DNA of 64,000 bases from positions 1-64,000 of the forward strand of contig NZ_JAEKKT010000114.1 of NCBI RefSeq assembly GCF_019510245.1, read 5' to 3'. Positions 842-45,387 of this stretch are shown here, in pieces. How positions within the stretch are numbered: position 1 is the first letter of the stretch; each line of letters opens with the position of its first letter. Position numbers and translations under genes: made by a program. The notes below the pieces were generated by a model. That model saw nothing but the letters and a program-made list of their open reading frames with translations. It was not told the DNA's origin and did not search any database. Source of the stretch: Streptomyces sp. (lineage in GTDB: Bacteria > Actinomycetota > Actinomycetes > Streptomycetales > Streptomycetaceae).

Positions 842-868
842 TGTCACACCTCGGCGGGCTGCGCGGTC
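842..868 (+). promoter_or_regulatory. ECF41-type promoter of the CMD gene
   Basis: -35 TGTCACA (842-848), 16-nt spacer, -10 GGTC (865-868). The -10 lies about 35 nt before the start of the carboxymuconolactone decarboxylase gene. CMD genes are a classic partner of ECF41 sigma factors. It is one of 11 matching sites in this window. Confidence 0.8.
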
Positions 869-903
869 AGTAGTGCGTACCAGCAATTCCGCAAGGAGGA
901 TCC

Positions 904-1377
904 ATGGACGCGCGTCTCAACTACTACGGCAATCCCGTCGCGGGCAAGGTGCTCAAGCACCTCGTCTCGGCCAGCAAGGCGCTGTCGGACTCGACGCTGC
1001 CGGCCACCGTCCAGCACCTGGTGGAGATCCGCGCCAGCCAGATCAACGGCTGCGGTTTCTGCACCGACATGCACACCAAGGAGGCAACCCACGCCGGGGA
1101 GACCTCGGTGCGGCTCAACCTCGTCGCCGCCTGGCGGGAGGCGACGGTCTTCACCGAGGCCGAGCGCGCCGCGCTGGAGCTGACCGAGCAGGGCACCCGC
1201 GTGGCGGACGCGGCCGGCGGTGTCTCCGGTGAGGCCTGGGCGAACGCCGCCAAGCACTTCGACGAGGACCAACTCGCCGCGCTGACCAGCCTGATTGCCA
1301 TCATCAACGCCTACAACCGCATCAACATCATCACCCAGCAGCCGGCCGGCGGCTACCAGGTCGGCATGTTCGGCTGA
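904..1377 (+). CDS. carboxymuconolactone decarboxylase family (AhpD-like) protein
   Basis: 157 aa, started by ATG 904 with AAGGAGG just upstream. The AhpD-type core is clear: residues 37-62 hold the helix with EIRASQINGCGFCTDMH, where the CxxC cysteines and the following His form the redox/proton-relay centre of alkylhydroperoxidase-like CMD proteins. The remainder is helical (AERAALELTEQGT; LAALTSLIAIINAYNRINI), as in this small all-alpha family. The likely role is cytosolic peroxide or radical detoxification rather than true protocatechuate-branch decarboxylation, since no pca genes are adjacent. The TGTCACA promoter directly upstream places it in the predicted ECF41 regulon. Published ECF41 factors typically control such CMD/oxidoreductase/epimerase genes. 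Confidence 0.88.
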   Translation: MDARLNYYGNPVAGKVLKHLVSASKALSDSTLPATVQHLVEIRASQINGCGFCTDMHTKEATHAGETSVRLNLVAAWREATVFTEAERAALELTEQGTRVADAAGGVSGEAWANAAKHFDEDQLAALTSLIAIINAYNRINIITQQPAGGYQVGMFG

Positions 1378-1631
1378 ACCGGAAGCCGGGGGCCGGAGGC
1401 CGGCCGGGACGCAGCCGGGTACGGAGAATCCCCGGTCCCGCCATCGACGCCTTCGGCACGCAGAACGACGTCCGGGCGCCGGCCGACTGGGCTCAAGCCG
1501 TGGTCGGCCGAACGGTGGCGGGTGAGCGCCGGCCCGGCCGCCTTCTGTCTTCGCTGTGAATCAACTCGTTGTGAGCCTGGAACCGCCGACGCGAACTCGG
1601 CCGTTCCGGGCCGGTATTCGGAGGTAGCACC
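1378..1631. other. intergenic region upstream of cupin 1
   Basis: 254 bp without a convincing gene. It lacks a TGTCACA-type promoter. The last ~35 bp (CCGTTCCGGGCCGG followed by CGGAGGT) nearly repeat the leader of the third cupin gene at about 35740-35780, which suggests a shared leader or promoter element. Confidence 0.6.
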
Positions 1632-2042
1632 ATGCACGAAATGCACTCAGAGGACGGTTTCGGACCGAAGATGCTGGCGGACGTCAAGCCGCCCTTCGTT
1701 CCCGAGGGCGCTTCGGGAATGACCGTCCTCGTCGAGTGGGCTCCGGGTGACCCCGGGACTCCTCCGCACCGCCACTCCGGGCCGTGTTTCGGCTACGTCA
1801 TCGAGGGGGCGCTCCGGTGGGAGCTCGAGGGCGAGCCGGAGCACGTGATCAAGGCCGGCGAGACGTTCTGGGAGCCGGGCGGTGACGTGATCCACTATCA
1901 GAACGGCAACGCCTCCTCGGAGGAGCCGGCCAAGTACATCGTGTTCATGATGTGCGCGCCGAACCAGCCGATGCTCACCCTGGTCGAGGACGAGGAACTC
2001 GAGAAGCGGGCCCACCTGCGCGCCCCGCGCCCCACCGACTGA
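1632..2042 (+). CDS. cupin-domain protein (paralog 1 of 3)
   Basis: 136 aa, ATG 1632 preceded by GGAGG. It is a single conserved-barrel cupin. Motif 1 is PPHRHSGPCFGYVIEGALRW (two His for metal binding), and motif 2 is FWEPGGDVIHYQNGN. The tail RAHLRAPRPTD is shared with two other cupins in this window (21275-21685 and 35308-35739). Small cupins bind a metal and act as dioxygenases, isomerases or sensors; nothing here fixes the substrate. The opening MHEMHSEDGFGPKMLADVK differs from the other two copies, but from VPEGASGMT onward all three align. It is convergent with the NmrA gene across a strong hairpin. Confidence 0.82.
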   Translation: MHEMHSEDGFGPKMLADVKPPFVPEGASGMTVLVEWAPGDPGTPPHRHSGPCFGYVIEGALRWELEGEPEHVIKAGETFWEPGGDVIHYQNGNASSEEPAKYIVFMMCAPNQPMLTLVEDEELEKRAHLRAPRPTD

Positions 2043-2055
2043 GCTCCCGCCTGCG

Positions 2056-2083
2056 CACCGCCATGGATCTCGCCATGGCGGTG
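2056..2083. terminator. bidirectional hairpin terminator
   Basis: Perfect 11-bp stem CACCGCCATGG / CCATGGCGGTG around the loop ATCTCG, placed between the convergent cupin 1 and NmrA genes. There is no U-tract, as is common in streptomycetes. Confidence 0.7.
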
Positions 2084-2148
2084 CCGCCGTGTGCACGGCA
2101 GCCCCTGGCGGACGCTCGGTGCCACGGGACGCCCGCACCGCGCCTGCG

Positions 2149-3024: not shown

Positions 3025-3051
3025 TGTCACAGCGGCGGGGCTCTGTCGGTC
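3025..3051 (+). promoter_or_regulatory. ECF41-type promoter of the OsmC gene
   Basis: TGTCACA (3025-3031), 16 nt, GGTC (3048-3051), about 50 nt before the OsmC start. Confidence 0.8.
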
Positions 3052-3101: not shown

Positions 3102-3641
3102 ATGGCATTCGACATCACCAGTCCCTCGGGTTCTGCCCCTGCAGAAGGGTCGGCGAGCGTGAGCCCCGGTCTGTCCACCGACAAGGACTTCGACGGAGAG
3201 GCCTTCGCGCCGATCTACACCACCACCGTGACGGTGAGCGGGGGGACGGCGAGTCACGGGCGGGCCTCGGGAAGGGCTCGCTCGGGCGACGGCGTCCTGG
3301 ATCTCGACCTGCGCATGCCCGCGGAACTGGGCGGAGACGGCCGGGGGACGAATCCGGAGCAGTTGTTCGCCGCCGGTATCGCCGCCTGTTTCCACGGTGC
3401 ACTGAGTCTGGTCGCGCGGCAGGCCGCCCACGACCCCGCAGCGATCTCCGTGGAAGCGACCGTGGCTTTCGGACGGGACCCGGAAGACGGCGGCTACCTG
3501 CTGCATGTCGACCTCGAGGTCAAGTGGCCGGACATCGACCTCGCCGTCGCCGCCCCGCTCGTGGAGAAGGCCGATTCGCTCTGCCCCTACACGAAGATGG
3601 CCCTGCGGGGAACACCGACGAGCATCAGGCTGGCCTCATAG
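3102..3641 (+). CDS. ohr: OsmC/Ohr-family organic hydroperoxide resistance protein
   Basis: 179 aa. ATG 3102 (MAFDITSPSG) is preceded by GAAGG at suitable spacing. The two redox-active cysteines of Ohr/OsmC are present: one in GIAACFHGALSL and one in SLCPYTKMALRG. The motif NPEQLFAAG precedes the first Cys, as in Ohr. These cytosolic thiol peroxidases reduce organic and fatty-acid hydroperoxides with lipoyl or mycothiol-type reductants. About 35 residues precede the TTTVTVSGGTASHGR strand, slightly longer than typical Ohr (about 140 aa). The ECF41-type promoter upstream makes it a predicted member of the same regulon as the AhpD-like CMD gene. It ends at an 18-bp hairpin shared with the convergent DUF1003 gene. 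Confidence 0.88.
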   Translation: MAFDITSPSGSAPAEGSASVSPGLSTDKDFDGEAFAPIYTTTVTVSGGTASHGRASGRARSGDGVLDLDLRMPAELGGDGRGTNPEQLFAAGIAACFHGALSLVARQAAHDPAAISVEATVAFGRDPEDGGYLLHVDLEVKWPDIDLAVAAPLVEKADSLCPYTKMALRGTPTSIRLAS

Positions 3642-3764: not shown

Positions 3765-4301
3765 TCACAGCGAATCCGGGGCCACGGGCGGAACGTCGGA
3801 GCCCGATTCCAGGGCGCTCCTGCTCTGCCTGATGATCTCCTGGACGTGCAGCTCGATCTCCTGTGGATTCAGGCCGAGCGCCTTGCCTGTGTGCACGGCC
3901 CAGATCTCGGCACGCAGATTGGTCTCGAAATCCAGATCGGCCCGGACGTTCTCCCGTGCGGCCTGCCGGTTCTGGCTCACCATGACGAAGGTGGACAGGA
4001 AGATGGCCTCAAGGCTCACGATCATGGTGAGCAGCCCGAAGGGGTAGGGGTCGAAGACCGCTGCGGCGCCGAACAGCCTGAGGTTGAGGGCGATCCACAC
4101 CGCGAACCAGACGGCATGCACGTAGACGAAGCCCATCGTGCCCGCGAAGGCCGTGATCGCGTCCGCGAACCGGTCCTGCGACGTGCGCAGCCTGGCGAAC
4201 ACCAGCCGCTCGTGGCGTGCCCGGAGGCCGAGGCGTTCCGTGCCGCCGGAAGCGGAGCCCGGCCGGGACGCCCGACCCTCGGATCGAACGGTCATTCGCA
4301 C
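3765..4301 (-). CDS. DUF1003 family membrane protein
   Basis: 178 aa. GTG 4301 has GAGGG five bases upstream; ATG 4295 is the alternative. A polar Arg/Ser-rich N-terminus of about 45 residues is followed by two hydrophobic spans, AITAFAGTMGFVYVHAVWF and, after the conserved FDPYPFGLL turn, LLTMIVSLEAIFLSTFVMVSQ. Then comes the cytoplasmic helix NRQAARENVRADLDFETNLR, the most conserved block of DUF1003. The C-terminus (AEIWAVHTGKALGLNPQEIE) is also family-like. Function is unknown. The gene has its own ECF41-type promoter (CGTCACA-N16-GGTC), divergent from that of the neighbouring flavoprotein gene. Its leader carries a duplicated 16-bp unit containing GAGGGTGT. Confidence 0.85.
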   Translation of the reverse strand: MRMTVRSEGRASRPGSASGGTERLGLRARHERLVFARLRTSQDRFADAITAFAGTMGFVYVHAVWFAVWIALNLRLFGAAAVFDPYPFGLLTMIVSLEAIFLSTFVMVSQNRQAARENVRADLDFETNLRAEIWAVHTGKALGLNPQEIELHVQEIIRQSRSALESGSDVPPVAPDSL

Positions 4302-4363: not shown

Positions 4364-4390
4364 GACCGTGGAGCCGAGGAGATTGTGACG
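4364..4390 (-). promoter_or_regulatory. ECF41-type promoter of the DUF1003 gene
   Basis: Minus strand: CGTCACA (4390-4384), 16 nt, GGTC (4367-4364). One mismatch from TGTCACA. It is divergent from the flavoprotein promoter 31 bp away. Confidence 0.65.
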
Positions 4391-4421: not shown

Positions 4422-4448
4422 TGTCACAGATTCCCGGACGGCCCGGTC
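4422..4448 (+). promoter_or_regulatory. ECF41-type promoter of the flavoprotein gene
   Basis: TGTCACA (4422-4428), 16 nt, GGTC (4445-4448), 38 nt before the GTG start at 4486. Confidence 0.8.
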
Positions 4449-4485: not shown

Positions 4486-6216
4486 GTGACAATCACGGAA
4501 CAACGCATTTCCGCCACGGTGCTCGTCATCGGAACCGGAGGTGCCGGGCTGCGCGCGGCGATCGAACTGGCCGAGGCCGGCGTCGACGTCCTCGCGGTCG
4601 GCAAGCGCCCCAAGGAGGACGCGCACACGGCGCTTGCCGCCGGAGGCATCAACGCAGCCCTCGGCACCATGGATCCCGAGGACAGCTGGCAGCAGCACGC
4701 GGCCGACACGCTCAAGGAGAGCTACCTGCTCGCCGATCCCCGCACCGTGGAGATCGTCACCCAGGGCGCCGCCCGGGGCATCGGCGACCTGGAGCGCTAC
4801 GGCATGGCCTTCGCCCGTGAGAAGGACGGACGGATCTCCCAGCGCTTCTTCGGCGCTCACACCTTCCGGCGGACCGCGTTCGCCGGCGACTACACCGGCC
4901 TGGAGATCCAGCGCACGCTCATCCGGCGCGCGGGCCAGCTGAACATTCCGGTGCTCGACGGTGTCTACATCACCCGGCTGCTGGTCCACGACGGCGCCGT
5001 CTTCGGCGCCTACGGCTTCGATCTCACCCAGGGAACGCGGTACCTGATCCACGCCGACGCCGTCATCCTCGCCGCAGGTGGTCACACCCGCATCTGGCGG
5101 CGGACGTCCTCCCGGCGCGACGAGAACACGGGCGACTCGTTCCGGCTGGCCGTGGAGGCCGGCGCCCGGCTGCGCGACCCAGAGCTGGTGCAGTTCCATC
5201 CCTCCGGGATCATCGAGCCCGAGAACGCGGCCGGCACCCTCGTCAGCGAGGCCGCGCGCGGTGAGGGCGGCATCCTGCGCAACGCGCTCGGCGAACGGTT
5301 CATGAACCGCTACGACCCCGCGCGCATGGAGCTGTCGACCCGCGACCGCGTGGCCCTGGCCTCGTACACGGAGATCAAGGAGGGGCGGGGCACGGCCAAG
5401 GGCGGAGTGTGGCTCGACGTCTCCCACCTGCCGCGGCAGACGATCATGACGCGTCTCCCCCGCGTCTACCAGACCCTGCTGGACCTGCAGATGCTCGACA
5501 TCACCCGCGATCCGATCGAGATCGCGCCCACCGCGCACTACTCGATGGGCGGGGTGTGGGTACGCCCGGAGGACCACAGCACCGACGTGCGCGGCCTCTA
5601 CTCCATCGGTGAGGCGTCGAGCGGCCTGCACGGCGCCAACCGCCTCGGCGGGAACAGCCTCATCGAACTGCTGGTCTTCGGCCGTATCACGGGCCAGGCG
5701 GCCGCCGCCTACTCGCGGTCGCTGACCGCCCAGCCGCGGTCGGCGTCGGCTGTCGCACAGGCCCGCGCGGAGATCGACGAACTGCTGGTGGCCGACGGAC
5801 CGGAGAACGTCCGCGCCCTGCAGCGAGCCATCCGCAACACCATGACCGAGCACGCCGGAGTCGTACGCGACGAAGAGGGCCTGCGCGCCGGGCTCGCTGA
5901 GCTCGCGGCGATCGAGAAGCGCATGGAGGACGTCGGTGTGCACCCGGACATCGCCGGTTTCCAGGATCTCGCGCACGCCTTCGACCTCAAGTCCGCGGCG
6001 CTGGCGGCCCGGGCCACTCTCGAAGCGGCACTTGAGCGCCGCGAGACCCGTGGCTGCCACAACCGCAGCGACTACCCCCACCTGGACCCCGCTCAGCAGG
6101 TCAACCTCGTGTGGTCGCCCACGACCGGAATCACCCGGGAGAGCATCCCTGGCATCCCCGACGAGATTTCCTCTCTGATGGCAGAGGTCTCGACCGACGG
6201 AAAACTCGCCGAATAA
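4486..6216 (+). CDS. SdhA/FrdA-like FAD-binding oxidoreductase without partner subunits
   Basis: 576 aa from GTG 4486 (GGAG upstream). The N-terminal FAD dinucleotide motif is VIGTGGAGLRAAIELAEAG (residues 14-32). AHTALAAGG places a His at residue 47, equivalent to the His that carries covalent FAD in SdhA/FrdA; L-aspartate oxidases lack it. Further family motifs are HTFRRTAFAGDYTG, QFHPSG, EAARGEGGILRN, HYSMGGVWV and GLHGANRLGGNSLIELLVFG. The C-terminal helical domain ends at HNRSDYPHLD. Succinate dehydrogenase or fumarate reductase normally needs an iron-sulfur subunit and a membrane anchor; neither is nearby. This may be a soluble fumarate reductase-like enzyme or may borrow subunits. It is driven by an ECF41-type promoter and probably co-transcribed with the hydrolase 77 bp downstream. 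Confidence 0.85.
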   Translation: MTITEQRISATVLVIGTGGAGLRAAIELAEAGVDVLAVGKRPKEDAHTALAAGGINAALGTMDPEDSWQQHAADTLKESYLLADPRTVEIVTQGAARGIGDLERYGMAFAREKDGRISQRFFGAHTFRRTAFAGDYTGLEIQRTLIRRAGQLNIPVLDGVYITRLLVHDGAVFGAYGFDLTQGTRYLIHADAVILAAGGHTRIWRRTSSRRDENTGDSFRLAVEAGARLRDPELVQFHPSGIIEPENAAGTLVSEAARGEGGILRNALGERFMNRYDPARMELSTRDRVALASYTEIKEGRGTAKGGVWLDVSHLPRQTIMTRLPRVYQTLLDLQMLDITRDPIEIAPTAHYSMGGVWVRPEDHSTDVRGLYSIGEASSGLHGANRLGGNSLIELLVFGRITGQAAAAYSRSLTAQPRSASAVAQARAEIDELLVADGPENVRALQRAIRNTMTEHAGVVRDEEGLRAGLAELAAIEKRMEDVGVHPDIAGFQDLAHAFDLKSAALAARATLEAALERRETRGCHNRSDYPHLDPAQQVNLVWSPTTGITRESIPGIPDEISSLMAEVSTDGKLAE

Positions 6217-10709: not shown

Positions 10710-11504
10710 TCAGGCAGCGATGCCGCGGCTGTCCATGGCGTCCTCGACTATGTGCAGCCCGTCCAGGCCCGGCAGCTTCGCGATGTGCGAGTCGATGTCG
10801 CGGATGAGTTTGCGGCCCTCGGAGCCCGCGAAGAGGTGCGTCATGACGTGCGTGACCTCGGCCTCGGGCATGACGCCCGAGCCGACCGGGCCCCAGGCCT
10901 TCTCCAGCGCCAGGCGGGCGACCACGCGGGCCTTCCTGCTCGCGGCGAGCCGGTCGCGCGCCTGCGACGCGTAGAACGCGACGTGCTTCGTCTCCTGCTG
11001 TGCGATCCGCTTGAGCAGCGGTACCAGCACGGGGTGGCTCTCCAGCGCGGCGAGCCGGTGGTAGGCGGCGGTCGCCGACCACTCGTTCGCCGCCCCCCAT
11101 GCCATGTGCACGGCGACGAAGTCGTTTCCGACCAGCCGGCCGATCACCGTCTGCTTCACCGTCCCCAGGCGGTCCCGCCAGCCGAGCTTCAGACGGGTCG
11201 CCTTGAGCTCGTCGAAGTCGACTCCGAGGCCGTGGCGCTCCAGCACGGCGGCGAGCGCTTCGCCGTGCCAGAACTCCTCGCGGTTCCACATCGTCATGAA
11301 GGCGCCCACCGCGGGCTCGTCGTGAGACGGGGTGGTCAGGAGATCACGCAGGTAACACACGGTGTGGTACTCGATGTCGCACATGTAGCGCAGGGTGCGC
11401 AACGTCTCCTCGGGCAGCGGGTTGCGCTCGAACTCGTCGAAGTCGAGATCGGCCCACTGCACGCCGGTGGAGTTCTTCGTGTACTTGTCTATGTCGAAGG
11501 CCAT
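10710..11504 (-). CDS. ferritin-like diiron protein 1 (last gene of ether-lipid operon)
   Basis: 264 aa. ATG 11504 overlaps the TGA of the upstream reductase gene (TGATG), with GGAAGAG as ribosome-binding site. It has a four-helix-bundle ferritin/acyl-desaturase-like pattern. Helix 1 has DIEYHTVCYL, helix 2 has NREEFWHGEALAA (ExxxHxE-like), helix 3 has AANEWSATAAYHRLA and helix 4 has QQETKHVAFYAS (ExxH). These Glu/His sets could bind two iron atoms as in acyl-ACP desaturases or N-oxygenases. The partner gene at 13816-14643 is a diverged paralog that has lost the helix-2 His. Position behind a fatty acyl reductase suggests oxidation of a lipid chain, perhaps desaturation of an alkyl ether, but this is inference. 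Confidence 0.72.
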   Translation of the reverse strand: MAFDIDKYTKNSTGVQWADLDFDEFERNPLPEETLRTLRYMCDIEYHTVCYLRDLLTTPSHDEPAVGAFMTMWNREEFWHGEALAAVLERHGLGVDFDELKATRLKLGWRDRLGTVKQTVIGRLVGNDFVAVHMAWGAANEWSATAAYHRLAALESHPVLVPLLKRIAQQETKHVAFYASQARDRLAASRKARVVARLALEKAWGPVGSGVMPEAEVTHVMTHLFAGSEGRKLIRDIDSHIAKLPGLDGLHIVEDAMDSRGIAA

Positions 11505-14724: not shown

Positions 14725-14751
14725 GACCGCGTAACCGGCACATGTGTGACA
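14725..14751 (-). promoter_or_regulatory. ECF41-type promoter of the minus-strand ether-lipid operon
   Basis: Minus strand: TGTCACA (14751-14745), 16 nt, GGTC (14728-14725), driving the ferritin-like 2, reductase-HAD and ferritin-like 1 genes. Confidence 0.8.
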
Positions 14752-29054: not shown

Positions 29055-29085
29055 CACTAAGACTCTCAACATCTCAATTGGGTGG

Positions 29086-29107: not shown

Positions 29108-29132
29108 AAGGTTCGTGCCTAGCGTGGTCGCC

Positions 29133-32130: not shown

Positions 32131-32374
32131 GTCTTCTCGGAACCCCGCCGACTCGCGCTGTCGCGCACCTCGCGTACGGCGACCGCCACCGGCCAGGATC
32201 GGAACGCCGCCGGACCGCGCAGCCCGGAGGTGCCGTTGGCCACCTTCGGCATCGCTCCTGGACCACGTCGTCCACGTCCGCGTGGCCCTGCAGGGCACGG
32301 CCGACGATGTTGTAGACCAGGGGCAGAGACTTCGGCACCGTCGGCAGCGCATCCAGAGCCGGGGCGCCGCTCAC
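32131..32374 (-). pseudogene. sigma-factor-like gene, N-terminal remnant
   Basis: GTG 32374 overlaps the LuxR stop as GTGA and opens LDALPTVPKSLPLVYNIVGR with ALQGHADVDDVVQE, the region 2.1-2.2 pattern of ECF sigma factors. After a frameshift it continues MPKVANGTSGLRG and PAAFRSWPVAVAVREVRD, then merges with the VAO remnant near 32130. Regions 2.3 to 4 are missing. It was probably once co-transcribed with the LuxR-type regulator. Confidence 0.55.
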
Positions 32375-35223
32375 CCGGTGCCGTCGGCGACACCGCCCCG
32401 TTCGACCGCCAGCCGGGTCAGTTCGACGCGGGTGTTGATCCCGAGCTTGGTGAAGATGTGTCTCATGTGGGTGTTGACGGTGTGCACGGACACGTGGAGC
32501 CGGTCGGCGATCGCCCGGTTGGTGAGTCCTTCCACGACGAGCGGGATCAGTTTCCGCTCGGATCCGGTCAGACTCCCCCACCCCGGAGAGATGTCCTTGC
32601 CCAGCCGCGGGGCGCCCGCGCGCACGCCCAGTTGCCGCAGACGCCGCACGAGCCGCTCGTGATCGCCCACGGCTCCCGAGGCCGACGCCAGCCGGCCCGC
32701 TTCTTCCAGACAGCGGATCGCCTGCGCCGTATCGGCCGAGGCGGCCATGAGCTCGCCGAGGTCCTCGCAGGCCGCGGCCAGAGCCAGTCGCCTGCCGGTG
32801 CTCCGGTAGCCGGCGACGGCGGAGGTGAGTGCACGCGGGTCGCCGTGGAGCAGCCCGTCCACGTGGGCACGGACGGCCGCGCTGATCAACTGGCCGTCGT
32901 CCCGGGCGGTCAGGGTACTCAGTGCGCCGGACACGGCCTGCGCGACCGACGGCGCCCCGCCGCGCAGCGCGATACGCGCGATGGCGGGCCAGTGTGACGG
33001 CGGGAGGGTGAGCAGCCGCGTCGGCTCGCTGTCCTCGACGGTCCCGGCGAGCGCCGCTGCCGCTGCCTGGTCCCTGCCCTCCGCGTCCGCCAGACAGGCG
33101 CGCGCGAGCGACACCCACAAGGCGTACCGCCGGGCGTTCGTGCCGGGGACGGCTTCGGCCTCACGGAGATGCTCCCCCGCCCTGGCGAGGTCGCCGCGCC
33201 TGATCTCCACCAGCGCCAGCACGGCGCGGGCCTGCGGATCCGGCTGGGTGATCTCGAGTTCGCCCGCCACCGCCAGACTGGCCTCGGCCTCCACGGCCGC
33301 GTCGTCCAGCGCGCCCTGTTCGAGCAGGGCGCAGGCACGGCGGGCGTGCCAGTGCGGAAGTGACCAGCCGAGGCCCAGCGCCTCCGCTTCGTGCTGGCCC
33401 TCACGCAGCACCCGCTCGGTGTCAGCGAGCCGGTCGGTGCTGGTCAGTACCGTGGCCAGCCACAGCGCCGGAATGCGCGGGGGCCTCAGGTAGGGCACGG
33501 CGGGCTCGGCACAGGCGCGTGCGGTGGCGGCCTCGGCGAGCTCCAGCGCTCGGCCGAGGCGCCCGCGGTAGAAGGACGTCTGCGACTGGAACACCATGAC
33601 GCTGACCACGACGGCCGGATCGTGGCTCTGGTAGGCGGCCGCGACCAGGCCGGTGTCCGTCTGCTCGGCAGCCGTGATGTTCCCGAGGTGCACATGGCCC
33701 GTCGCCCGGGTCTTCAGCAGCAGGACCCGCAGGTCCTGCGGCAGCGCGGGAAGGTCCAGGGCCTGCTGGAGGTGGGTCATGGCGGCGGCGTCGTCGCCCG
33801 CGGCCTGGTGTATCTCGGCGGCCACCAGGCGCAGGTTCGCCTCCTGCGGCGGCTCCAGACCGTCCGACAGGGTCGCGTCGACCAGTTCGAGCGCCTCGTG
33901 GACCCGGCGGGTCCGGCCGAGGTACTCGGCGGCGTCGGTGAGCAGACCGACGCGGCGCCGGTCGCGCGGGGGCAGCAGGCCGGCGATCCGCCGGGCCAGG
34001 TCCGCGGCGGCGTCGGGGGCCGTCGACGACAGTTCCCGTACGGCGGTGTGCAGCCTGGTCACGGCGTCGTCGTCCACCGGGCCGCCCGCCATGACGACAT
34101 GCCAGGCCACCTCCGCCGACCGTGCCCCGTCGGCGCGCAGGCTCTCGGCGGCCTCCCGGTGCAGCGCGGTCCGCACGGCAGGCGGCAGGCTCTCGTGGAC
34201 GGCCTGGCGCAGGAGGTCGTGGCGGAAGGCGAGTCGCGGGCCGTCCGCCGAGAGCAGGCCGCTGTTCAGGGCGGCCTCCGCGCCGAAGAGCAGGCTGCCG
34301 ACCTGCCTGCCGAGCATGCGGGCGGCGGTGCCGAAGTCGAATTCGCGGCCGAGGACGGAGCCGATCTGGACGAGGCGTACGGCGTCCTCCGGCAGCTGGT
34401 GCAGACGTGCGGCGACTCTCTGACGGAAGGCGACGGGGATGTCGCGGTACAGGCGGTCCGCCGCACCCGCCTCTGCTTCGGCGGCGTCCGGGCCGGGGAA
34501 AGAGCGCACCAGTTCGATCGCGAGGAACGGATTGCCCGCGACGCCTCGCAGCATCCTGGCCAGACCGGGGGACGGTTCCGTCCCGAGCACGTCGGCCGCG
34601 ATGTGTTCCAGTTCCCGCTGGGGCAGCGGGCCGAGGGTCAGCCATCGGGCGCCGAGGCGCTCGAGGTCCTCCCGCACCCTGGCCACGGTCGGGCGCTCGG
34701 TCTCCGACCGTACCGCCAGCACCCACAGGATCCGCGAGGCAGCCAGTCGTCCGGGGAGCGTGCGCAGCGCGAAGAGCGTGGCCGGATCCGACCATTGCGC
34801 GTCGTCGACGAGCACCAGTACCGGGGCACGCTGGGCCCGGTCCTCCAGCGCGTCCGCGATGCCGTCCAGCAGCCGCAGGCGCTGGTCGTCCAGGCCCGCG
34901 GCGGCCCGGGGAGAACCGTCGTGGGCCTGCAGGGCCGACTGGAGGGCGGCTCCTGCCGCATACTGATCGAACTCGTCGGCCCTTACGGGGACCACGTCGA
35001 ACCCGCAGCGCCGGGCCCGCTCGTCCAGCTCCGCGAGGAGCCGGCTCTTGCCGACGCCGGGCGCGCCTTCCACGACGACGCAGGCGCCCCGTCCGCCGCG
35101 CACCGCCACCAGAGCCTCGCGGACGGCCGCGATCTCACGGTCCCGGCCCCGCAGGCGCAGCCCGGTCCCGGCCTGGTTCCCACGCCCGGGGTCCAGGTGG
35201 CCCGTGGGGTCTGTGCCGCGCAT
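32371..35223 (-). CDS. large ATP-binding LuxR-family (LAL/MalT-type) regulator
   Basis: 950 aa from ATG 35223. The N-terminal AAA/STAND ATPase has Walker A VVEGAPGVGKSRLLAELDE and Walker B PVLVLVDDAQWSD. The middle (residues 300-850) is a helical TPR-like sensor with repeated Ala/Leu-rich helices. The C-terminal LuxR helix-turn-helix (residues 885-945) is SLTGSERKLIPLVVEGLTNR, AIADRLHVSVHTVNTHMRHI and FTKLGINTRVEL. LAL regulators bind an inducer, hydrolyse ATP and activate catabolic or secondary-metabolite genes. Neighbours do not define the target. A decayed sigma-factor gene is coupled to its stop codon. Confidence 0.9.
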   Translation of the reverse strand: MRGTDPTGHLDPGRGNQAGTGLRLRGRDREIAAVREALVAVRGGRGACVVVEGAPGVGKSRLLAELDERARRCGFDVVPVRADEFDQYAAGAALQSALQAHDGSPRAAAGLDDQRLRLLDGIADALEDRAQRAPVLVLVDDAQWSDPATLFALRTLPGRLAASRILWVLAVRSETERPTVARVREDLERLGARWLTLGPLPQRELEHIAADVLGTEPSPGLARMLRGVAGNPFLAIELVRSFPGPDAAEAEAGAADRLYRDIPVAFRQRVAARLHQLPEDAVRLVQIGSVLGREFDFGTAARMLGRQVGSLLFGAEAALNSGLLSADGPRLAFRHDLLRQAVHESLPPAVRTALHREAAESLRADGARSAEVAWHVVMAGGPVDDDAVTRLHTAVRELSSTAPDAAADLARRIAGLLPPRDRRRVGLLTDAAEYLGRTRRVHEALELVDATLSDGLEPPQEANLRLVAAEIHQAAGDDAAAMTHLQQALDLPALPQDLRVLLLKTRATGHVHLGNITAAEQTDTGLVAAAYQSHDPAVVVSVMVFQSQTSFYRGRLGRALELAEAATARACAEPAVPYLRPPRIPALWLATVLTSTDRLADTERVLREGQHEAEALGLGWSLPHWHARRACALLEQGALDDAAVEAEASLAVAGELEITQPDPQARAVLALVEIRRGDLARAGEHLREAEAVPGTNARRYALWVSLARACLADAEGRDQAAAAALAGTVEDSEPTRLLTLPPSHWPAIARIALRGGAPSVAQAVSGALSTLTARDDGQLISAAVRAHVDGLLHGDPRALTSAVAGYRSTGRRLALAAACEDLGELMAASADTAQAIRCLEEAGRLASASGAVGDHERLVRRLRQLGVRAGAPRLGKDISPGWGSLTGSERKLIPLVVEGLTNRAIADRLHVSVHTVNTHMRHIFTKLGINTRVELTRLAVERGGVADGTG

Positions 35224-35307: not shown

Positions 35308-35739
35308 TCACTCCGCGGGGCGCGGGGCGCGCAGGTGGGCCCGCTTCTCCAGTTCCTCGTCGTCGACCAGGGTGAGCATCGGCTGGCCCGGCGCGCACAT
35401 CATGAACACGATGTATTTGGCCGGCTCCTCCGAGGAGGCGTTGCCGTTCTGGTAGTGGATCACCTCACCGCCCGGCTCCCAGAACGTGTCACCTGCCTTG
35501 ATCACACGTTCCGGCTCGCCTTCGAGCTCCCACCGGACCGCGCCTTCGAGGACGTAGCCGAAACACGGCCCCGAGTGACGGTGCGGAGGTGTCCCGGGGT
35601 CGCCCGGCGGCCACTCGACGAGGACGGTCATGCCCGAAGCACCCTCGGGAACGAAGGGCGGCCTGACGTCCGCCAGCATCCTGGGACCGTACTCGCTGTC
35701 CTGTGCGGCGCTCTCGGTCGCCGAGTCCTGTGCCGACAT
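35308..35739 (-). CDS. cupin-domain protein (paralog 3 of 3)
   Basis: 143 aa; ATG 35739 (MSAQDSATESAAQDSEYGPR) preceded by CTACGGAGGTGCA. Very close to cupin 1 from GPRMLADV on: PPHRHSGPCFGYVLEGAVRW, FWEPGGEVIHYQNGN, SSEEPAKYIVFMMCAP and the tail RAHLRAPRPAE. The metal-binding His pair is intact. Its leader shares CCGTTCCGGGCCGG with cupin 1, so these two look like a recent duplication. It lies 117 bp after the SpoIIE-type gene on the same strand and may be reached by read-through from the ECF41-type promoter at 38544. Confidence 0.83.
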   Translation of the reverse strand: MSAQDSATESAAQDSEYGPRMLADVRPPFVPEGASGMTVLVEWPPGDPGTPPHRHSGPCFGYVLEGAVRWELEGEPERVIKAGDTFWEPGGEVIHYQNGNASSEEPAKYIVFMMCAPGQPMLTLVDDEELEKRAHLRAPRPAE

Positions 35740-35855: not shown

Positions 35856-38414
35856 CTACCACGGCAACGGCCGGCGTCCCGCGACGTCACCGGAGCCCGC
35901 CGTCGCGGAGACGAGGACGGGCCGCTCCGCGACTACAGGTGGCACCCCGGGCTCCCGTGGGTCTGACGATGCGGGGGCCAGGTCCTCCTCGGCCCAGACC
36001 ACTTTGCCGCCCGGCACGGTGCGGAAACCCCATCTGCGGGACAGCTGGGCGACCAGGAAGAGGCCGCGGCCGTTCTCGTCATGGGTGCATGCGCTGCGCA
36101 GACGTGGGGCGCAGGCGCTGGAGTCGAACACTTCGCAGGTCAGGACCTGGTGCCGGATCAGGCGCAAAGTGATCTGACCGGTGCCGTGGCGGACGGCGTT
36201 GGTGACCAGTTCGCTGACGATCAGCTTCGTGGCGTCCGCGACGTCCCCCAGGCCCCATTCGGTCAGCTGACGGGCGGCCAGGTGCCGGGCGCTGCGGGCG
36301 GCGGTCTGGTCGCTGGGCAGCGTCCAGGAGGCCACCTGGGCGGGGTCGAGCGTACGGGTGCGGACGAGGAGCAGCGTGCGGTCGTCGGGGGGTGCCTGCC
36401 CCGGGAAGGTCTCCATCGCGCTGCTGCAGAGTTCTTCCAGGGAGCGGCCGGGTTGTGCCAGGGCGCTGCCGAGGCGGCGCATTCCCACGTCGATGTCGTG
36501 TTCGCGGGTCTCGACGAGGCCGTCGGTGTACAGGCCGAGGAGACTTCCCTCGGGCAGTTCCAGCTCCGCCGCCTCGTAGGGGACGCCCAGGCCCATGCCC
36601 AGCGGGGTTCCGGTGGGCAGGTCGGGGAAAGCGACCCGCCCCTGCGGGTCGATGACCGCGGGCGGCGGGTGCCCGGCCCGCGCCATGGTGCACCTGCGGG
36701 TGACCGGGTCGTACACCGCGTACAGGCAGGTGGCGCCCACGGCCGGGGAGTACTGCTCCGGAGCGTCGGCGTCGTCCTCGGCCAGCCGCCGGACCGTGTC
36801 GTCGAGGTGGGTGAGCAGTTCGTCGGGGGGCAACTCCATGTCGGCGAGGGTGCGTACGGCGGTGCGGAGCCGGCCCATGGTCGCGGCGGCGTTGATCCCG
36901 TGTCCGACCACATCGCCGACGACGAGGGCCACGCGCGCGCCGGACAGCGGGATCACGTCGAACCAGTCGCCCCCGACGCCGTGATCCATGTCGGCGGGGA
37001 GGTAACGCGACGCCGTGTCGACCGCCGCGCCCCCTTTCAGACGGTGCGGGAGCAGGTTCCGCTGGAGGGCGAGGGCGGCGGTGTGCTCGCGGGCGTACTG
37101 GCGCGCGTTGTCCAGGGCCAGCGCGGCGCGGCTGACGAGTTCCTCGGCGAGGAGCACGTCGACCTCCTGGAACGGCCCCGGGGCCGAGGTGCGGATGAAC
37201 AGCACCATGCCCAGCAGGACGCGCCGTGCACGGATGGGGATGAGCATCAGGGAGTGGGTGCCGTTCTCGTGGATCGTCCGCGCCCGCGCCGGGTCCTGGT
37301 CGATCCAGGTGCCCGCAGCGGTGTCCAGGACCGGCTCCAGGTGGGACGTCCCGGTGCGCAGGACCTCGGTGAAGGGTGAGGCGGGCGGCCAGGGGACCAC
37401 CTCGCCGTGCGCCCACGGGGACTCCGGGACCCCCTGGCGGATCGACGCCAGACCGGCGCGCCGGAAGACCGGGAGGCGCCGGCCCGAGGCGCCGATGTGG
37501 ACCGGGGGCCCTTCGCCGAACGGGACCGACTGTTCGAGGTCCACGGCGACGTAGTCGGCGAGCAGCGGCACGGCCAGGTCGGCCAGTTCCTGGCTGGTGC
37601 GCATCACGTCCAGACTGCTGCCGAGGCGGGTACTGCCCTCGCTGAGGATGGCCAGGCGATCGCGCGCCCGCCGGCTCCCGCTGAGGTCGACGCTGATGAC
37701 GCACACCCCCAGCACCTGGCCGTCGGCGTCCTGGAGGCAGAAGACCGAAGCCGCGTACGTGTGCTCCCGGTGCGGGCTCGACGGCAGCCACGTCCGGTGG
37801 TCGTGGACCTGCGCGGGCCCGCCCCGCATCACCTCCCGCATCGCCTCTTCGAGTGCTTCGGCCTCGGCCCCCGGCCGCACGTCGCTGAACCGCCGTCCGA
37901 GCCGGCGGTCGCGGGGGATGCCGTCGTGGCTCTCCATCGTGTCGTTCACCCAGGTGCACCGCAGGTGCGGGTCCCGCACGACGATGCCCATGGGGACGCG
38001 GGCGAGCAGCGACTCCCGCACCAGTTCGTTCGTCGTCTCCCCGGAGGCCTCCCCGATGTCGGTCACGGAGACGAGCCACCGGACCGTTTCGCCGTGCCCC
38101 GACAGCATCGAGACCCGCAGGCTCACGTCGAGCCCGTGCCCGTCCCTGTGCCGTACCGTCGTCGTGCCCGACCAGCCGCGCCGGGCGAGGCACCGGCCGA
38201 CGAACTCGGCGGTCGTCGGCGCTTCTTCGGGGTACGGCAGAACGGCCGAGGCCGACCGGCCCACCATGTCGGCGGCGGAGTACCCGACCAGCCGCTCGGC
38301 GGCCCGCGTCCATCCGACCACCGTCCCCTGCTCGTCGAGCATCGCGATCGCCGACTCCGAGGGCTCACGGATGCTCGGCTGTGTACGGGGTACCGCTGTG
38401 TCTGTGCTGATCAT
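35856..38414 (-). CDS. PAS-PAS-GAF-PP2C (SpoIIE)-HATPase regulator
   Basis: 852 aa from ATG 38414. Order: PAS 1 (AMLDEQGTVVGWTRAAERLV), PAS 2 (ARVPMGIVVRDPHLRCTWVN), GAF (LADLAVPLLADYVAVDLEQS), then a PP2C/SpoIIE phosphatase domain (residues 470-700) with GGDWFDVIPLSG, VVGDVVGHGINAAATMG, ARAGHPPPAVI and LYTDGLVETREHDID. A C-terminal anti-sigma-type histidine kinase-like ATPase has KLIVSELVTNAVRHG and GRGLFLVAQLSRRWG. Such proteins dephosphorylate anti-anti-sigma factors in partner-switching modules, so it could connect light, redox or ligand signals to sigma control. An ECF41-type promoter lies 130 bp upstream, divergent from the second phosphatase gene. Confidence 0.9.
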   Translation of the reverse strand: MISTDTAVPRTQPSIREPSESAIAMLDEQGTVVGWTRAAERLVGYSAADMVGRSASAVLPYPEEAPTTAEFVGRCLARRGWSGTTTVRHRDGHGLDVSLRVSMLSGHGETVRWLVSVTDIGEASGETTNELVRESLLARVPMGIVVRDPHLRCTWVNDTMESHDGIPRDRRLGRRFSDVRPGAEAEALEEAMREVMRGGPAQVHDHRTWLPSSPHREHTYAASVFCLQDADGQVLGVCVISVDLSGSRRARDRLAILSEGSTRLGSSLDVMRTSQELADLAVPLLADYVAVDLEQSVPFGEGPPVHIGASGRRLPVFRRAGLASIRQGVPESPWAHGEVVPWPPASPFTEVLRTGTSHLEPVLDTAAGTWIDQDPARARTIHENGTHSLMLIPIRARRVLLGMVLFIRTSAPGPFQEVDVLLAEELVSRAALALDNARQYAREHTAALALQRNLLPHRLKGGAAVDTASRYLPADMDHGVGGDWFDVIPLSGARVALVVGDVVGHGINAAATMGRLRTAVRTLADMELPPDELLTHLDDTVRRLAEDDADAPEQYSPAVGATCLYAVYDPVTRRCTMARAGHPPPAVIDPQGRVAFPDLPTGTPLGMGLGVPYEAAELELPEGSLLGLYTDGLVETREHDIDVGMRRLGSALAQPGRSLEELCSSAMETFPGQAPPDDRTLLLVRTRTLDPAQVASWTLPSDQTAARSARHLAARQLTEWGLGDVADATKLIVSELVTNAVRHGTGQITLRLIRHQVLTCEVFDSSACAPRLRSACTHDENGRGLFLVAQLSRRWGFRTVPGGKVVWAEEDLAPASSDPREPGVPPVVAERPVLVSATAGSGDVAGRRPLPW

Positions 38415-38543: not shown

Positions 38544-38570
38544 GACAGGGCGGCACTTTGATCTGTGACA
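38544..38570 (-). promoter_or_regulatory. ECF41-type promoter of the SpoIIE phosphatase gene
   Basis: Minus strand: TGTCACA (38570-38564), 16 nt, TGTC (38547-38544). It uses T at the first -10 position, as does the NDH-2 site. Confidence 0.7.
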
Positions 38571-42223: not shown

Positions 42224-42241
42224 GGAGACCGGGGGTGCGGC

Positions 42242-43174
42242 TCACCCGTCAACCGGCGCGAGGCCGGGCGCAGTTGCCCGGGCGCCGGAGTCCAGGAACG
42301 CGGCGATCTTGCTGGGGTTGAACAACCACATCACCCTATGGATGCCGTCCCTAGAAGCAGCGATCGTCAGGATCGTGGTGGGGGAACCGTCGCGGTAGAT
42401 CATCACGCCCGTACGGCCGTTGGCCTGGACCGGTCGCGGGTCCGTCCCCTGCCAGAACCGCGGCGTGGCCGTGGCCAGGTTGGCCACACGCGCACGGCCC
42501 ACCACGGGTATCCGGGCGGCCCCCCGGATACCGTTGCCGTCGGACAGGCTGACGACGTCAGGGGCGAGGACGGCTTCCAGCGAGGCCACATCACCGGTGC
42601 GCGCCGCCGAGACGAAGGCGTCCAGAAGGCGTCGATGCTCCAGCGCGTCCACACTCCCGCGCGGCTCGCCCGCCAGGCGCTTGCGCGAACGGCTCACGAT
42701 CTGTCGGACGTTGACGACGCTGAGCTGGAGGATCTCGGCAATCTCCGGGTAGGAGTAGTCGAACGCCTCGCGCAGGACGTACGCGGCCCGCTCGGTGGGG
42801 CTCAGCTTCTCCAGCACGAGCAACAGGGCCAACTCCAGAGCCTCCGCCCGCTGTGCGCCCACCTCCGGGTCACAACTGGTGTCGACGGGCTCCGGCAGCC
42901 ACGGCCCGATGTAGGTCTCCCGGCGCACCCGCGCCGACTGCGCCACGTTGATGGCCAGACGGGTCGTCGCACTGGAGAGGAAGGCCCCGGGGCTCACCAC
43001 CACGGAGCGGTCGGTCTTCTGCCAGCGCAGCCACACCTCCTGGACCACGTCCTCGGCCTCGGCCACGCTGCCGAGCACGCGGTAGGCGATCCCGAAGAGG
43101 CGCGCCCGGTACTGCACGAAGTCGGAGACGGCCTCGTCGAGGTCACTCGTGGTAGGGGACGGCTTGAGGTACAT
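42242..43174 (-). CDS. ECF41-type extracytoplasmic-function sigma factor with fused SnoaL domain
   Basis: 310 aa from ATG 43174 (MYLKPSPTTSDLDEAVSDFV). Sigma region 2 (residues 10-80) contains LFGIAYRVLGSVAEAEDVVQ and RWQKTDRSVVVSPGAFLSS. The linker motif WLPEPVDT is followed by region 4 (EKLSPTERAAYVLREAFDYS, then YPEIAEILQLSVVNVRQIVS). The C-terminal SnoaL-like NTF2 domain (residues 190-300) carries LSDGNGIRGA (family DGGGR) and LFNPSKIAAF (family NPDKL). These three motifs define ECF41, in which the C-terminal domain itself limits activity in place of an anti-sigma factor. It most likely reads the TGTCACA-N16-GTC promoters in this window. Its own upstream DNA has no such promoter but has a 14-bp direct repeat. 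Confidence 0.9.
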   Translation of the reverse strand: MYLKPSPTTSDLDEAVSDFVQYRARLFGIAYRVLGSVAEAEDVVQEVWLRWQKTDRSVVVSPGAFLSSATTRLAINVAQSARVRRETYIGPWLPEPVDTSCDPEVGAQRAEALELALLLVLEKLSPTERAAYVLREAFDYSYPEIAEILQLSVVNVRQIVSRSRKRLAGEPRGSVDALEHRRLLDAFVSAARTGDVASLEAVLAPDVVSLSDGNGIRGAARIPVVGRARVANLATATPRFWQGTDPRPVQANGRTGVMIYRDGSPTTILTIAASRDGIHRVMWLFNPSKIAAFLDSGARATAPGLAPVDG

Positions 43175-43513: not shown

Positions 43514-43527
43514 CGCATCGCATGATC
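43514..43527. repeat. 14-bp direct repeat, copy 2
   Basis: CGCATCGCATGATC, followed by TGGTGATGCCGACCGG. Same motif as 43397-43410. Confidence 0.75.
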
Positions 43528-43608
43528 TGGTGATGCCGACCGGGCCGGCCCACCGGCAGGGGCACCGCGGGCCGGAGGCGGCGTTTCCGGCGGCTCGGCT
43601 CAGCGACT

Positions 43609-43950
43609 TCAGCCCAGCGACTTCAGGAGCACGGCGAAGCACAGGGTCATGGCCACGCTGACCAGGATCATCGCGGTGAGCGTTCCTCGCAGCCAGCGCG
43701 TGAAGCGGTCGCGGTGCCGCTGCTGCGCCTCGCTGACGTTCGCCGCGATGTGTTCCGTCACCATGCGTGCGACGTAGGTCTGTTCCCTGAGGTACCAGCC
43801 CTCGATGTCCGCCTTTTGCTCCCGGGTCAGTCCGGGCACCCGCGTGGTGAAGTGGGCGACGCGCCGCCGCGCCGCCTCCAGATGAGCGTGCCGGTACAGG
43901 AAGGTCTCGATGTCGGTCAGGCCGCGCGCGGCCTCCTTGCTCGTGTTCAT
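43609..43950 (-). CDS. small single-span membrane protein in the NDH-2 operon
   Basis: 113 aa from ATG 43950 (MNTSKEAARGLTDIETFLYR). A helical, charged N-terminal part (residues 10-85, HLEAARRRVAHFTTRVPGLT, YVARMVTEHIAANVSEAQQR) is followed by one C-terminal transmembrane span, TLTAMILVSVAMTLCFAVLL. I do not recognise the family. It begins 13 bp after the NDH-2 gene on the same strand, so it is probably translated from the same mRNA and may anchor or tune the dehydrogenase at the membrane. Predicted member of the ECF41 regulon through that promoter. Confidence 0.7.
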   Translation of the reverse strand: MNTSKEAARGLTDIETFLYRHAHLEAARRRVAHFTTRVPGLTREQKADIEGWYLREQTYVARMVTEHIAANVSEAQQRHRDRFTRWLRGTLTAMILVSVAMTLCFAVLLKSLG

Positions 43951-43963
43951 GGCGTGCTCCGCG

Positions 43964-45328
43964 TCAGGCGGCCGTGCGGTGACTCGTCGGGCTCTCGCCG
44001 GGGTCGCCGGGGCGCTGCGGATCGCCGCTCGTGACGAAGGCGTCCCGTGGATGCTGGACGGAGGCGAGGGAGACGAGGTCCCGGCCGAAGACCGCGGCCG
44101 TGAGCCAGACGGTGAGGACGCGGATCTTGCGTTCCCACGAGGGCACGGCCAGGACGTGGTAGCCGCGGTGCATCAGCCAGGCGGGAAGTCCCTTGATGAC
44201 GATCCGCTTGTACTGGAAGACGCCCCGTCCCAGCCCGAGGGTGGCCACCACTCCCAGACTGCTGTGGCGGTAGTTCCTGATGCGTCGCCCGCGCAGGTCG
44301 GCGACGATGTTCTTCGCGAGGCGTCTGCCCTGCCGTACGGCGTGCTGGGCGTTCGGCACCGTGTGAGCCCCCGGCACCGTGGAGGCCAGGTCGGGTACGG
44401 CCGCGTCGTCACCGGCCGCCCAGGCGTCCGGGACGAGTTCGCCGCCGGTGCCCACGCGCAGGTCGGGGCGGACCACGAGCAGGCCCCGTTCGTCGATCGG
44501 GAGATCCGAGTGGTTGTGCACGACCGGGTTGGAGGCGTTGCCGGCGGTCCACACGACCAGCGCGGAATCGAACTCCTCCCCGTCGGAGAGCACCACCCGG
44601 CCGTCGGCGAGGGAGCGGACCTGTGTGTCGAGGTGGACGTGTGCGCCACGGCGCTCCAGAGAGCGCACCACCCAGGCGCCCGGCTTGTCCCCCACCTCGG
44701 GCAGGATGCGGCCCCGGGCCTCGACCAGGTGGAAGGAGAGTTCGTCGGCGCTCAGCTCCGGGTACGACTTGAGCATCGCCGTCGCGAGCGACAGCAGTTC
44801 CCCGAAGCCCTCGACTCCGGAGAACCCGCCACCCACGAACGTGACGGTCAGCAGCCGTCGCCGCTCGGGGCCGGGAGGCAGGGAGGCCGCCTGGTCGAAC
44901 GCGGTCATCAGCCGGTCGCGGATGGCCACCGCCTCTTCGACGTGCTTCAGACCGATCGCGTGCTGGGCGAGCCCCGGGACGGGGAAGGTGCGGGTCACGG
45001 CACCGGCGGTCACGACGAGGGTGTCGTAACGCAGTTCGTAGTCCGCTCCGTTGACGGGCCGTACCGTGACCGTCCGGTCCGCGTGGCGGATCGAGGTCAC
45101 GGTTCCCGCGATCAGCCGGGCGCGCCGCAGGTGCCGCCGGAGCGACACGGCGGCGTGCCGGGCCTCGACCGATCCGGCCGTCACCTCTGGAAGAAACGGT
45201 TGGTACGTCATGTAGGGGCGGGGGTCGACCACCGTCACCCGCGCCTCCGCCGCACTGAGCCTCTTCTCCAGGCCCCATGCGGCGTAGAAGCCTGCGTAGC
45301 CGCCACCGACGATCACAATTTCGCGCAT
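43964..45328 (-). CDS. type II NADH dehydrogenase (NDH-2)
   Basis: 454 aa from ATG 45328 (MREIVIVGGGYAGFYAAWGL). The FAD motif GGGYAGFYAAW at the N-terminus and the NADH motif VTFVGGGFSGVEGFGELLSL near residue 175 are those of NDH-2. PYMTYQPFLPEVTAGSV, LRYDTLVVTAGAVTRTF, WTAGNASNPV, DAWAAGDDAAVPDL and NAQHAVRQGRRLAKNI follow. The C-terminal membrane-facing region has VFQYKRIVIKGLPAWLMHRG. It passes electrons from NADH to menaquinone without pumping protons, which suits redox stress. The promoter 33 bp before the start is TGTCACA-N16-TGTC. Downstream is a small membrane protein gene. Confidence 0.9.
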   Translation of the reverse strand: MREIVIVGGGYAGFYAAWGLEKRLSAAEARVTVVDPRPYMTYQPFLPEVTAGSVEARHAAVSLRRHLRRARLIAGTVTSIRHADRTVTVRPVNGADYELRYDTLVVTAGAVTRTFPVPGLAQHAIGLKHVEEAVAIRDRLMTAFDQAASLPPGPERRRLLTVTFVGGGFSGVEGFGELLSLATAMLKSYPELSADELSFHLVEARGRILPEVGDKPGAWVVRSLERRGAHVHLDTQVRSLADGRVVLSDGEEFDSALVVWTAGNASNPVVHNHSDLPIDERGLLVVRPDLRVGTGGELVPDAWAAGDDAAVPDLASTVPGAHTVPNAQHAVRQGRRLAKNIVADLRGRRIRNYRHSSLGVVATLGLGRGVFQYKRIVIKGLPAWLMHRGYHVLAVPSWERKIRVLTVWLTAAVFGRDLVSLASVQHPRDAFVTSGDPQRPGDPGESPTSHRTAA

Positions 45329-45360
45329 CAGACCCTCTGTTGGTTGTTCGACACCCCTTA

Positions 45361-45387
45361 GACAGGGCAGGGCCAGAAGGTGTGACA
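45361..45387 (-). promoter_or_regulatory. ECF41-type promoter of the NDH-2 operon
   Basis: Minus strand: TGTCACA (45387-45381), 16 nt, TGTC (45364-45361), then TAAG as in the 14782 promoter. About 33 nt from the NDH-2 ATG. Confidence 0.75.

Follow-up and report, generated by a model that had tools for sequence, protein, structure and literature searches.

A stretch of 64,000 nucleotides from Streptomyces sp. (contig NZ_JAEKKT010000114.1, here called the window) contains eleven 27-bp sites in which TGTCACA is followed, after 16 nt, by G, T or C and then GTC. Judging from sequence comparison, these sites very probably act as promoters and form one multi-gene regulon, the reader of which would be a distinct branch of ECF41 (extracytoplasmic function group 41) sigma factors that consists of two classes, A and B, and includes the product of the window gene at 42242-43174. 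ECF41 is a widely distributed sigma group for which earlier work describes control of a single gene or operon. ECF41 itself is known and what appears to be new is an ECF41 regulon with many promoters and a shifted -10 box, no regulon of this kind being described in the open-access papers searched. If the reading is correct, ECF41 would be a broad regulator in streptomycetes, acting on as many as 28 like promoters in one island and on an operon far away, the genes concerned would form a concrete target list for working back to the signal to which it responds, and a clean switch of -10 specificity from CGTC to GGTC would separate sister sigma clades.

Probable promoter sites in the window and in related loci

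All eleven sites listed in the initial annotation, where coordinates of minus-strand sites were left ends, were present with identical spacing throughout. As that annotation also indicated, nine were exact and two carried one mismatch (CGTCACA at 4364-4390, minus strand, and TGTCACG at 21117-21143, plus strand). Exact matches numbered nine as opposed to 0.13 expected from shuffles, with a maximum of two in 100 dinucleotide shuffles; the earlier estimate was of fewer than one chance match in 64 kb. With one mismatch allowed anywhere, 15 matches were found in the window as opposed to 3.1 expected (shuffle maximum 9), and the four extra matches (214 and 16535, plus and minus strand respectively; 733 and 21072, both minus strand) may be either chance or real. 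A scan of the whole genome (11.57 Mb), which had been proposed as a check, gave 31 exact matches, nine of them inside the window, compared with four for the reversed pattern. A called gene start lay 33-202 nt downstream of each of the eleven sites, in agreement with the earlier claim that every site points at a gene start. By gene calls ten sites were intergenic while the site at 18572-18598 overlapped the 3' end of whiB (18291-18620), a gene that was missed by the gene caller and added separately and that starts 33 nt from its own site.

Recurrence of the motif was evident when species genomes were searched for the SdhA-like flavoprotein of the window, at least 579 relatives being confirmed. 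The best 80 loci (1.57 Mb in total) were examined and comprised 67 that were mostly from Streptomyces, with Actinacidiphila, Catenulispora bins and one record named Nocardiopsis, and 13 from Microbacteriaceae. A site preceded the SdhA-like gene in 66 of the 80 loci (61 exact), usually about 62 nt upstream, and this was so for 66 of the 67 loci outside Microbacteriaceae as opposed to none of the 13 within that family. In the 80 loci, the spacing of the window sites (N17, i.e., 16 nt plus the base before GTC) gave 405 matches whereas other spacings from N8 to N27 gave 0 to 19, except N12, which gave 66. The excess at N12 arose because a second GTC stands in the spacer of N17 sites, 63 of the 66 matches sharing their -35 box with such a site. 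Among 400 sites away from locus ends, 356 were intergenic with a same-strand gene start within 260 nt. The same was true of only 230 among 2595 random positions, of 159 of 400 sites if the opposite strand was read, and of 14 of 36 sites with another spacing; the median distance from site to gene start was 65 nt. Chance origin of the sites was ruled out by the shuffles, the spacing profile and the reversed controls. A copied repeat, considered in place of a promoter, was also rejected because spacers and upstream flanks showed hardly any conservation; information content was concentrated in the boxes, was weaker beside the -10 box and downstream, and was near 0 in the upstream flank.

Gene families that recurred with the motif were counted in the 67 loci outside Microbacteriaceae, with a site of at most one mismatch required upstream and small families left out. 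Altogether 446 of 1192 genes had such a site. Proportions were highest for SdhA (67/68), OsmC (24/25), a second OsmC family (12/12), carboxymuconolactone decarboxylase (CMD; 21/23), NmrA (54/64), cupin (23/26), type II NADH dehydrogenase (NDH-2; 17/19), ferredoxin (17/17), ferredoxin reductase (15/15), a 316-amino acid (aa) alpha/beta hydrolase (9/9), methyltransferase (13/17), WhiB (5/6) and SpoIIE (3/3). Other families carried the site less regularly, namely class C sigma factors (25/35), sigma factors of class A or B (23/84), AMP-binding-like proteins (8/14), DUF5134 (9/18), cytochrome b (7/15), abhydrolase (7/20), transketolase/PDH-E1-like proteins (4/11) and UNK113 (2/7), and none of the four nitroreductase genes in these loci had one. 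Membership of SdhA-like, OsmC, CMD, cupin, NDH-2, WhiB and SpoIIE genes, all assigned to the regulon earlier from the window, is thus upheld by recurrence. Cytochrome b was joined to the site in only about half of the cases, and DUF1003 was not supported, no site being found upstream of the sole DUF1003 gene outside the window in the 67 loci (locus L079).

Gene order was shuffled from island to island. Islands occurred in many Streptomyces, in a Catenulispora bin and on a Streptomyces megaplasmid, and in Nonomuraea islands were present with altered sites. The core of the regulon, the composition of which was put forward as new in the initial annotation, is not peculiar to the genome of the window and is widespread in Streptomyces. 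In Streptomyces sp. NBC_00841 the island, with six exact sites in about 5 kb, is on a 1.5-Mb linear plasmid (L199, NZ_CP108854.1), and since it is plasmid-borne there the island core can perhaps move. In the 13 Microbacteriaceae loci (L138-L141 and L143-L151) the SdhA-like flavoprotein was 85-86% identical to that of the window, and neither sites, ECF41 genes nor other families of the window regulon were found near the gene. This identity suggests transfer between families.

The ECF41 branch and the base before GTC

The protein encoded at 42242-43174 (minus strand) matched Pfam models of sigma region 2 (42.8) and region 4 (r4_2, 55.2) above their cut-offs, contained the WLPEP motif of ECF41 within a GPWLPEP linker, and scored 327.8 with TIGR02957 (cut-off 323.25) and 262.2 with the SigJ model, just below the cut-off of 271 for the latter. 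Its C-terminal extension of about 140 aa had no SnoaL Pfam match at 1e-3; in ECF41 this extension is large and SnoaL-like and bears three conserved motifs. The best PDB match was Mycobacterium tuberculosis SigJ (5xe7, E 3.6e-41; named in PMC8999054), which has a fused SnoaL-like domain; the likeness is one of sequence.

Relatives were classified by identity to the window sigma factor as class A (at least 68%, the window factor included), class B (52-67%) or class C (divergent or degenerate), and A, B and C share islands. In the genome of the window three proteins matched at E<=1e-60, namely the window gene itself, a 76% partial copy (contig C224) and a 56% copy (C270), and 25 matched at E<=1e-3, about a dozen of which spanned most of the protein. 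A tree was built from 44 sequences of at least 255 aa (those of the window genome plus up to ten others per class), chosen among 144 collected ECF proteins. Support was 100/100 for the A clade, 100/97 for A+B and 100/100 for C; class D, which includes paralogues from the window genome, fell outside A+B, and B alone was not one clade, with one Catenulispora row outside. Exact WLPEP was present in 31/31 class A, 50/58 class B, 0/40 class C and 7/15 class D proteins. The opposite distribution was noted for DGGGK (0/31, 0/58, 38/40 and 2/15, respectively) and NPDKL (0, 2, 38 and 3), which we take to be labels of conserved motifs in the ECF41 C-terminal extension. Sigma-2 fell below the Pfam cut-off in both class C proteins that were scanned, and sigma-4 did so in one of them.

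The published ECF41 promoter consists of an ECF41-specific TGTCACA, a spacer of 16 +/- 1 nt and CGTC as the -10 box (Wecke 2012, PMC3426412). The -35 box and spacer at the islands agree with this description and the -10 box does not. In a profile of the 405 exact sites with their flanks, TGTCACA was followed by C (0.86) and, ahead of GTC, by G (0.84) or T (0.14), with an A/T-rich triplet after GTC; the base before GTC was G in 340, T in 56, A in 6 and C in 3. In the window, too, the -10 box is mostly not the published one, CGTC being found at only one of the eleven sites (18232-18258). Sites near class D sigma genes of the same genome (C363, C235 and C131) were CGTC.

The association of GGTC with the branch was also evident from counts in 295 Streptomyces genomes, of which 123 had a sigma relative at E<=1e-60 and three ambiguous ones were left out of the class comparison. 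In genomes with class A (n=31) the median GGTC count was 15 (range 3-25), compared with 3 (range 0-18) in genomes with B only (n=32) and 1 (range 0-10) in those with neither (n=229); by statistics that ignore phylogeny, p was 3e-20 for A versus none and 4e-6 for B versus none. Corresponding medians for the CGTC control were 4, 3.5 and 3 (B versus none, p 0.69). Class A was present in 27 of the 30 genomes with at least eight GGTC sites. The exceptions were genome G129, with a real cluster and a short B-like sigma factor (222 aa, 52%), G177, with B only, a fragmented assembly and clustered sites, and G173, with B only and partly scattered sites. At least five GGTC sites in the absence of A or B were noted in six of the 229 genomes (G129, G099, G288, G293, G161 and G233), and in G099, G288 and G293 these sites were tandem or scattered, with no cluster.

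Genome G165, which is near-complete in two contigs, contained 42 sites in which GTC follows G or T, compared with none in the reversed control. Its main island of about 72 kb (2.960-3.032 Mb) held 28 of these sites together with A and B, a second cluster at 0.23-0.25 Mb held six, and the two promoters corresponding to the ether-lipid operons of the window (see below) were at 10.48 Mb. Because some 7.5 Mb separate the latter from the genes of classes A and B, their control in trans by A or B is suggested.

Proposed regulation, alternatives and points against

In the regulon proposed here, sigma-4 of the A and B factors would bind TGTCACA and sigma-2 would bind GGTC, and the C-terminal extension would sense a signal or restrain the factor, as in those ECF41 proteins that have been studied. 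On activation, many separate promoters would be turned on and, with them, redox and electron-transfer proteins (the SdhA-like flavoprotein, ferredoxin and its reductase, NDH-2 and, in some strains, cytochrome b), as well as peroxide-type detoxifiers (OsmC and AhpD-like CMD), cupins, regulators (WhiB, SpoIIE phosphatase and additional ECF41 paralogues) and, in the strain of the window and a few others, the ether-lipid pathway. We interpret this as a stress programme concerned with redox and the membrane. Autoregulation of the loop is probable, since many class A genes (16/26) have a site of their own. The window sigma gene had none within two mismatches in the 435-nt gap upstream, and for this reason is perhaps expressed by read-through from the site at 45361. 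The initial annotation assigned all eleven sites to this one factor. An ECF41-type multi-gene regulon stands but a single sigma factor is too narrow, since islands hold A, B and degenerate C, and any of the three close sigma matches in the genome could read the window sites.

Compared with ECF41 of Bacillus licheniformis and Rhodobacter sphaeroides (PMC3426412), the system has in common sigma-2 and sigma-4, WLPEP, the long C-terminal extension, TGTCACA, the 16-nt spacer and the presence of CMD and NmrA/epimerase-like genes among targets. It differs in that the factors of those species have a single target with CGTC, a COE gene or operon to which a genome-wide motif search added no further members, whereas here there are up to 28 exact sites per island, mostly GGTC, many families and some distant promoters. 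Similarly, Sinorhizobium meliloti RpoE9 (PMC6180224) has the same type of -35 and -10 boxes and a CMD target but only this single target. Many families per island, by contrast, are indicated by sequence here. Azospirillum RpoE10, also of ECF41, reportedly controls lateral flagella; to judge from the title of that study, its effects likewise extend beyond a COE gene, although in another phylum and on other targets.

Several observations weigh against the proposed regulon. Because islands contain both the sigma genes and the majority of sites, co-inheritance inflates the association of counts, in which phylogeny is ignored; CGTC counts also differed slightly between class A genomes and those with neither class (p 0.02), most B-only genomes had few GGTC sites and four class A genomes had fewer than eight exact ones. 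A site of their own was found upstream of only 9 of 54 class B genes and, as noted, was not seen before the window sigma gene. One locus of the 67 (L142) had an SdhA gene with neither site nor ECF41. In G165 the ether-lipid operon has a class D ECF41 gene (41% identity) some 11 kb away, which may control it locally. The assembly of the window genome is 91% complete with 7% contamination. Finally, single targets were found when ECF41 factors were studied in B. licheniformis, R. sphaeroides and S. meliloti (PMC3426412, PMC6180224), and RIViT-seq with truncated SCO7099 of S. coelicolor, a factor not placed among the classes here, gave 0 targets.

It is improbable, although less so than the other alternatives, that the sites serve an ECF factor other than A or B, either class C or an unrelated one, with A and B as island passengers. 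Class C is often in islands, its genes carry the site as frequently as noted above, and counts cannot tell apart members of the same island. TGTCACA is, on the other hand, the published ECF41-specific -35 box, the number of GGTC sites tracks class A and, to a lesser degree, class B, and the cluster of G027 contains B with no class A row; the lack of WLPEP in every class C protein and the low sigma-2 scores of the two scanned also speak against class C as the reader. Less probable still is that each site belongs to a different ECF41 paralogue, the sites being copies of one promoter type with no shared regulon. The 25 sigma matches in the window genome and the CGTC sites near three of its class D genes would fit such an arrangement, but the island sites share a single GGTC consensus and one island contig of G020 carries 21 exact sites with few A or B genes. 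Operators of a repressor or activator, which frequent divergent site pairs about 20-100 nt apart might suggest, are the least credible alternative given a motif that is not an inverted repeat and that is strand-directed, fixed in spacing and at a promoter-like distance from gene starts.

Within the regulon of classes A and B, a further arrangement concerns class C. Nine of 56 complete class A proteins, a set in which some genes are counted in two loci, were shorter than 250 aa, and six of these nine were encoded directly downstream of a class C gene as opposed to 7 of 47 longer ones. The six represent five genomes, G020 and L103 being the same genome, and G165 has such a pair as well. Pairs of this kind are at L041:726-2645, L103, L114, L118, L081 and G165:C2:2996656-2998484, and the short proteins are about 175-243 aa with ends as called by the gene caller. 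A highly active truncated ECF41 is mentioned in Wecke 2012 (PMC3426412). Since class A keeps WLPEP without the ligand-domain motifs, and sometimes without the whole domain, while class C shows the reverse, class C might act in trans as sensor or inhibitor of the neighbouring cut-down class A factor, a sigma factor turned anti-sigma factor, with shared GGTC promoters driving the redox and ether-lipid programme. This arrangement is doubtful; if true, the islands would be a multi-input sigma network on one shared GGTC promoter type.

Predicted ether-lipid operons and other genes of the window

Two divergent operons of the window are preceded by exact GGTC sites. The site at 14725-14751 (minus strand) precedes an operon that runs from 14643 to 10710 and comprises, all on the minus strand, a gene at 13816-14643, the product of which had no Pfam match and clustered by BLAST with that of 10710-11504, a fatty acyl reductase of male-sterility type fused to a HAD phosphatase (FAR-HAD) at 11504-13819 (Pfam and NCBIfam), and a ferritin-like di-iron protein, predicted to be desaturase- or oxygenase-like, at 10710-11504. 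The site at 14782-14808 (plus strand) precedes genes, also on the plus strand, for a short-chain dehydrogenase (SDR; 14961-15752), a candidate acyl/alkyl-dihydroxyacetone phosphate (DHAP) reductase from its neighbours, a PlsC-type acyltransferase (15792-16514; Pfam and NCBIfam) and an alkyl-DHAP synthase homologue, AgpS (16511-18214; PDB 2uuu, E 5e-113). Homology thus identifies an alkyl-DHAP synthase, an acyltransferase and a fatty-alcohol-forming reductase, and an AgpS-type ether-lipid pathway is predicted. As in the eukaryotic DHAP/AgpS pathway (PMC9702350), AgpS, acyltransferase, reductase and fatty-alcohol-forming enzyme are found, here encoded together; the Streptomyces pathway differs in having ECF41-type promoters and a soluble predicted di-iron protein. 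If the regulon is real, an AgpS-type ether-lipid pathway of Streptomyces would be under sigma control.

Both operons had been counted as members of the regulon and both retained this status. Ether-lipid genes with sites were seen in the window and three close relatives, the FAR-HAD side in L072, G165 and G155 and the SDR side in L072 and G165; in G165 the SDR site is 341 nt before the called start, and in the rearranged G155 locus SDR has no site. At E<=1e-100, 9 of the 295 genomes contained a FAR-HAD match. For six distant homologues (about 50% identity) no site was present just upstream of the FAR-HAD operon, within wide flanks for five and flanks of 1.5 kb for L158. In L163 (G208), which has one of the distant FAR-HAD operons, an exact GGTC site (16058-16084) was noted immediately upstream of an AgpS-like gene that is itself distant (39%); the nearby FAR-HAD operon is site-free.

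The di-iron protein belongs to no Pfam family. Residues E45, E77xxH80, E141 and E171xxH174 were invariant in 23 aligned rows, the AF2 model had a pLDDT of 86, and the nearest folds were acyl-ACP desaturases and R2-like oxidases (weak E of 2.5e-3, probability 1.00). The protein is a candidate desaturase for ether lipids. Many of its named relatives are from Microbacteriaceae genera.

Among the remaining sites, those on the plus strand with exact matches and GGTC precede an AhpD-like CMD family protein (site 842-868; gene 904-1377, Pfam CMD and TIGR00778), OsmC (site 3025-3051; gene 3159-3641, Pfam), the SdhA/FrdA-like flavoprotein (site 4422-4448; gene 4486-6216, Pfam, NCBIfam and PDB comparison) and cytochrome b of QcrB type (site 18572-18598, with a counterpart in G165; gene 18781-20394, NF050120 698.8, cut-off 500), the last without bc1 subunits among called neighbours. 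In the flavoprotein the stretches FHPSG, RGEGG and HYSMGG align with succinate dehydrogenase and presumably hold catalytic residues. The single exact CGTC site (18232-18258, plus strand) precedes whiB (plus strand, Pfam Whib), and two more WhiB genes with sites were noted in G129. Of the mismatched sites, both GGTC, that at 21117-21143 precedes a cupin (21275-21685, plus strand, Pfam) followed by DUF5134 (21755-22378), and that at 4364-4390, the weakest of the eleven, precedes DUF1003 (3765-4202, minus strand, Pfam). Exact TGTC sites on the minus strand precede a PAS-GAF-SpoIIE-ATPase protein (site 38544-38570, SpoIIE sites recurring on two G034 contigs; gene 35856-38342, minus strand, Pfam), followed by a cupin (35308-35739), and an NDH-2 homologue (site 45361-45387; gene 43964-45328, minus strand, PDB NDH-2 chains from E 6.5e-37), directly after which is a called gene for a 113-aa protein of unknown family (43609-43950, minus strand).

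Further sites and the same families were present on five short contigs of the window genome (C138, C139, C224, C228 and C245; loci L039-L043). Contamination was first suspected as their source; several of them show sequence matches to the G165 main island, and a second island appears as likely as contamination or a second strain. Between regulon genes of the window, positions 23168-31641 are site-free and contain aromatic degradation genes (catechol dioxygenase, hydroxylase, thiolase and CoA transferase). A large AAA-LuxR (LAL-type) regulator is encoded at 32371-35223 and such regulators were again noted in islands of G020, G022, G049, G129 and G165, at least one of them, on G022 contig 88, being directly downstream of an exact site.

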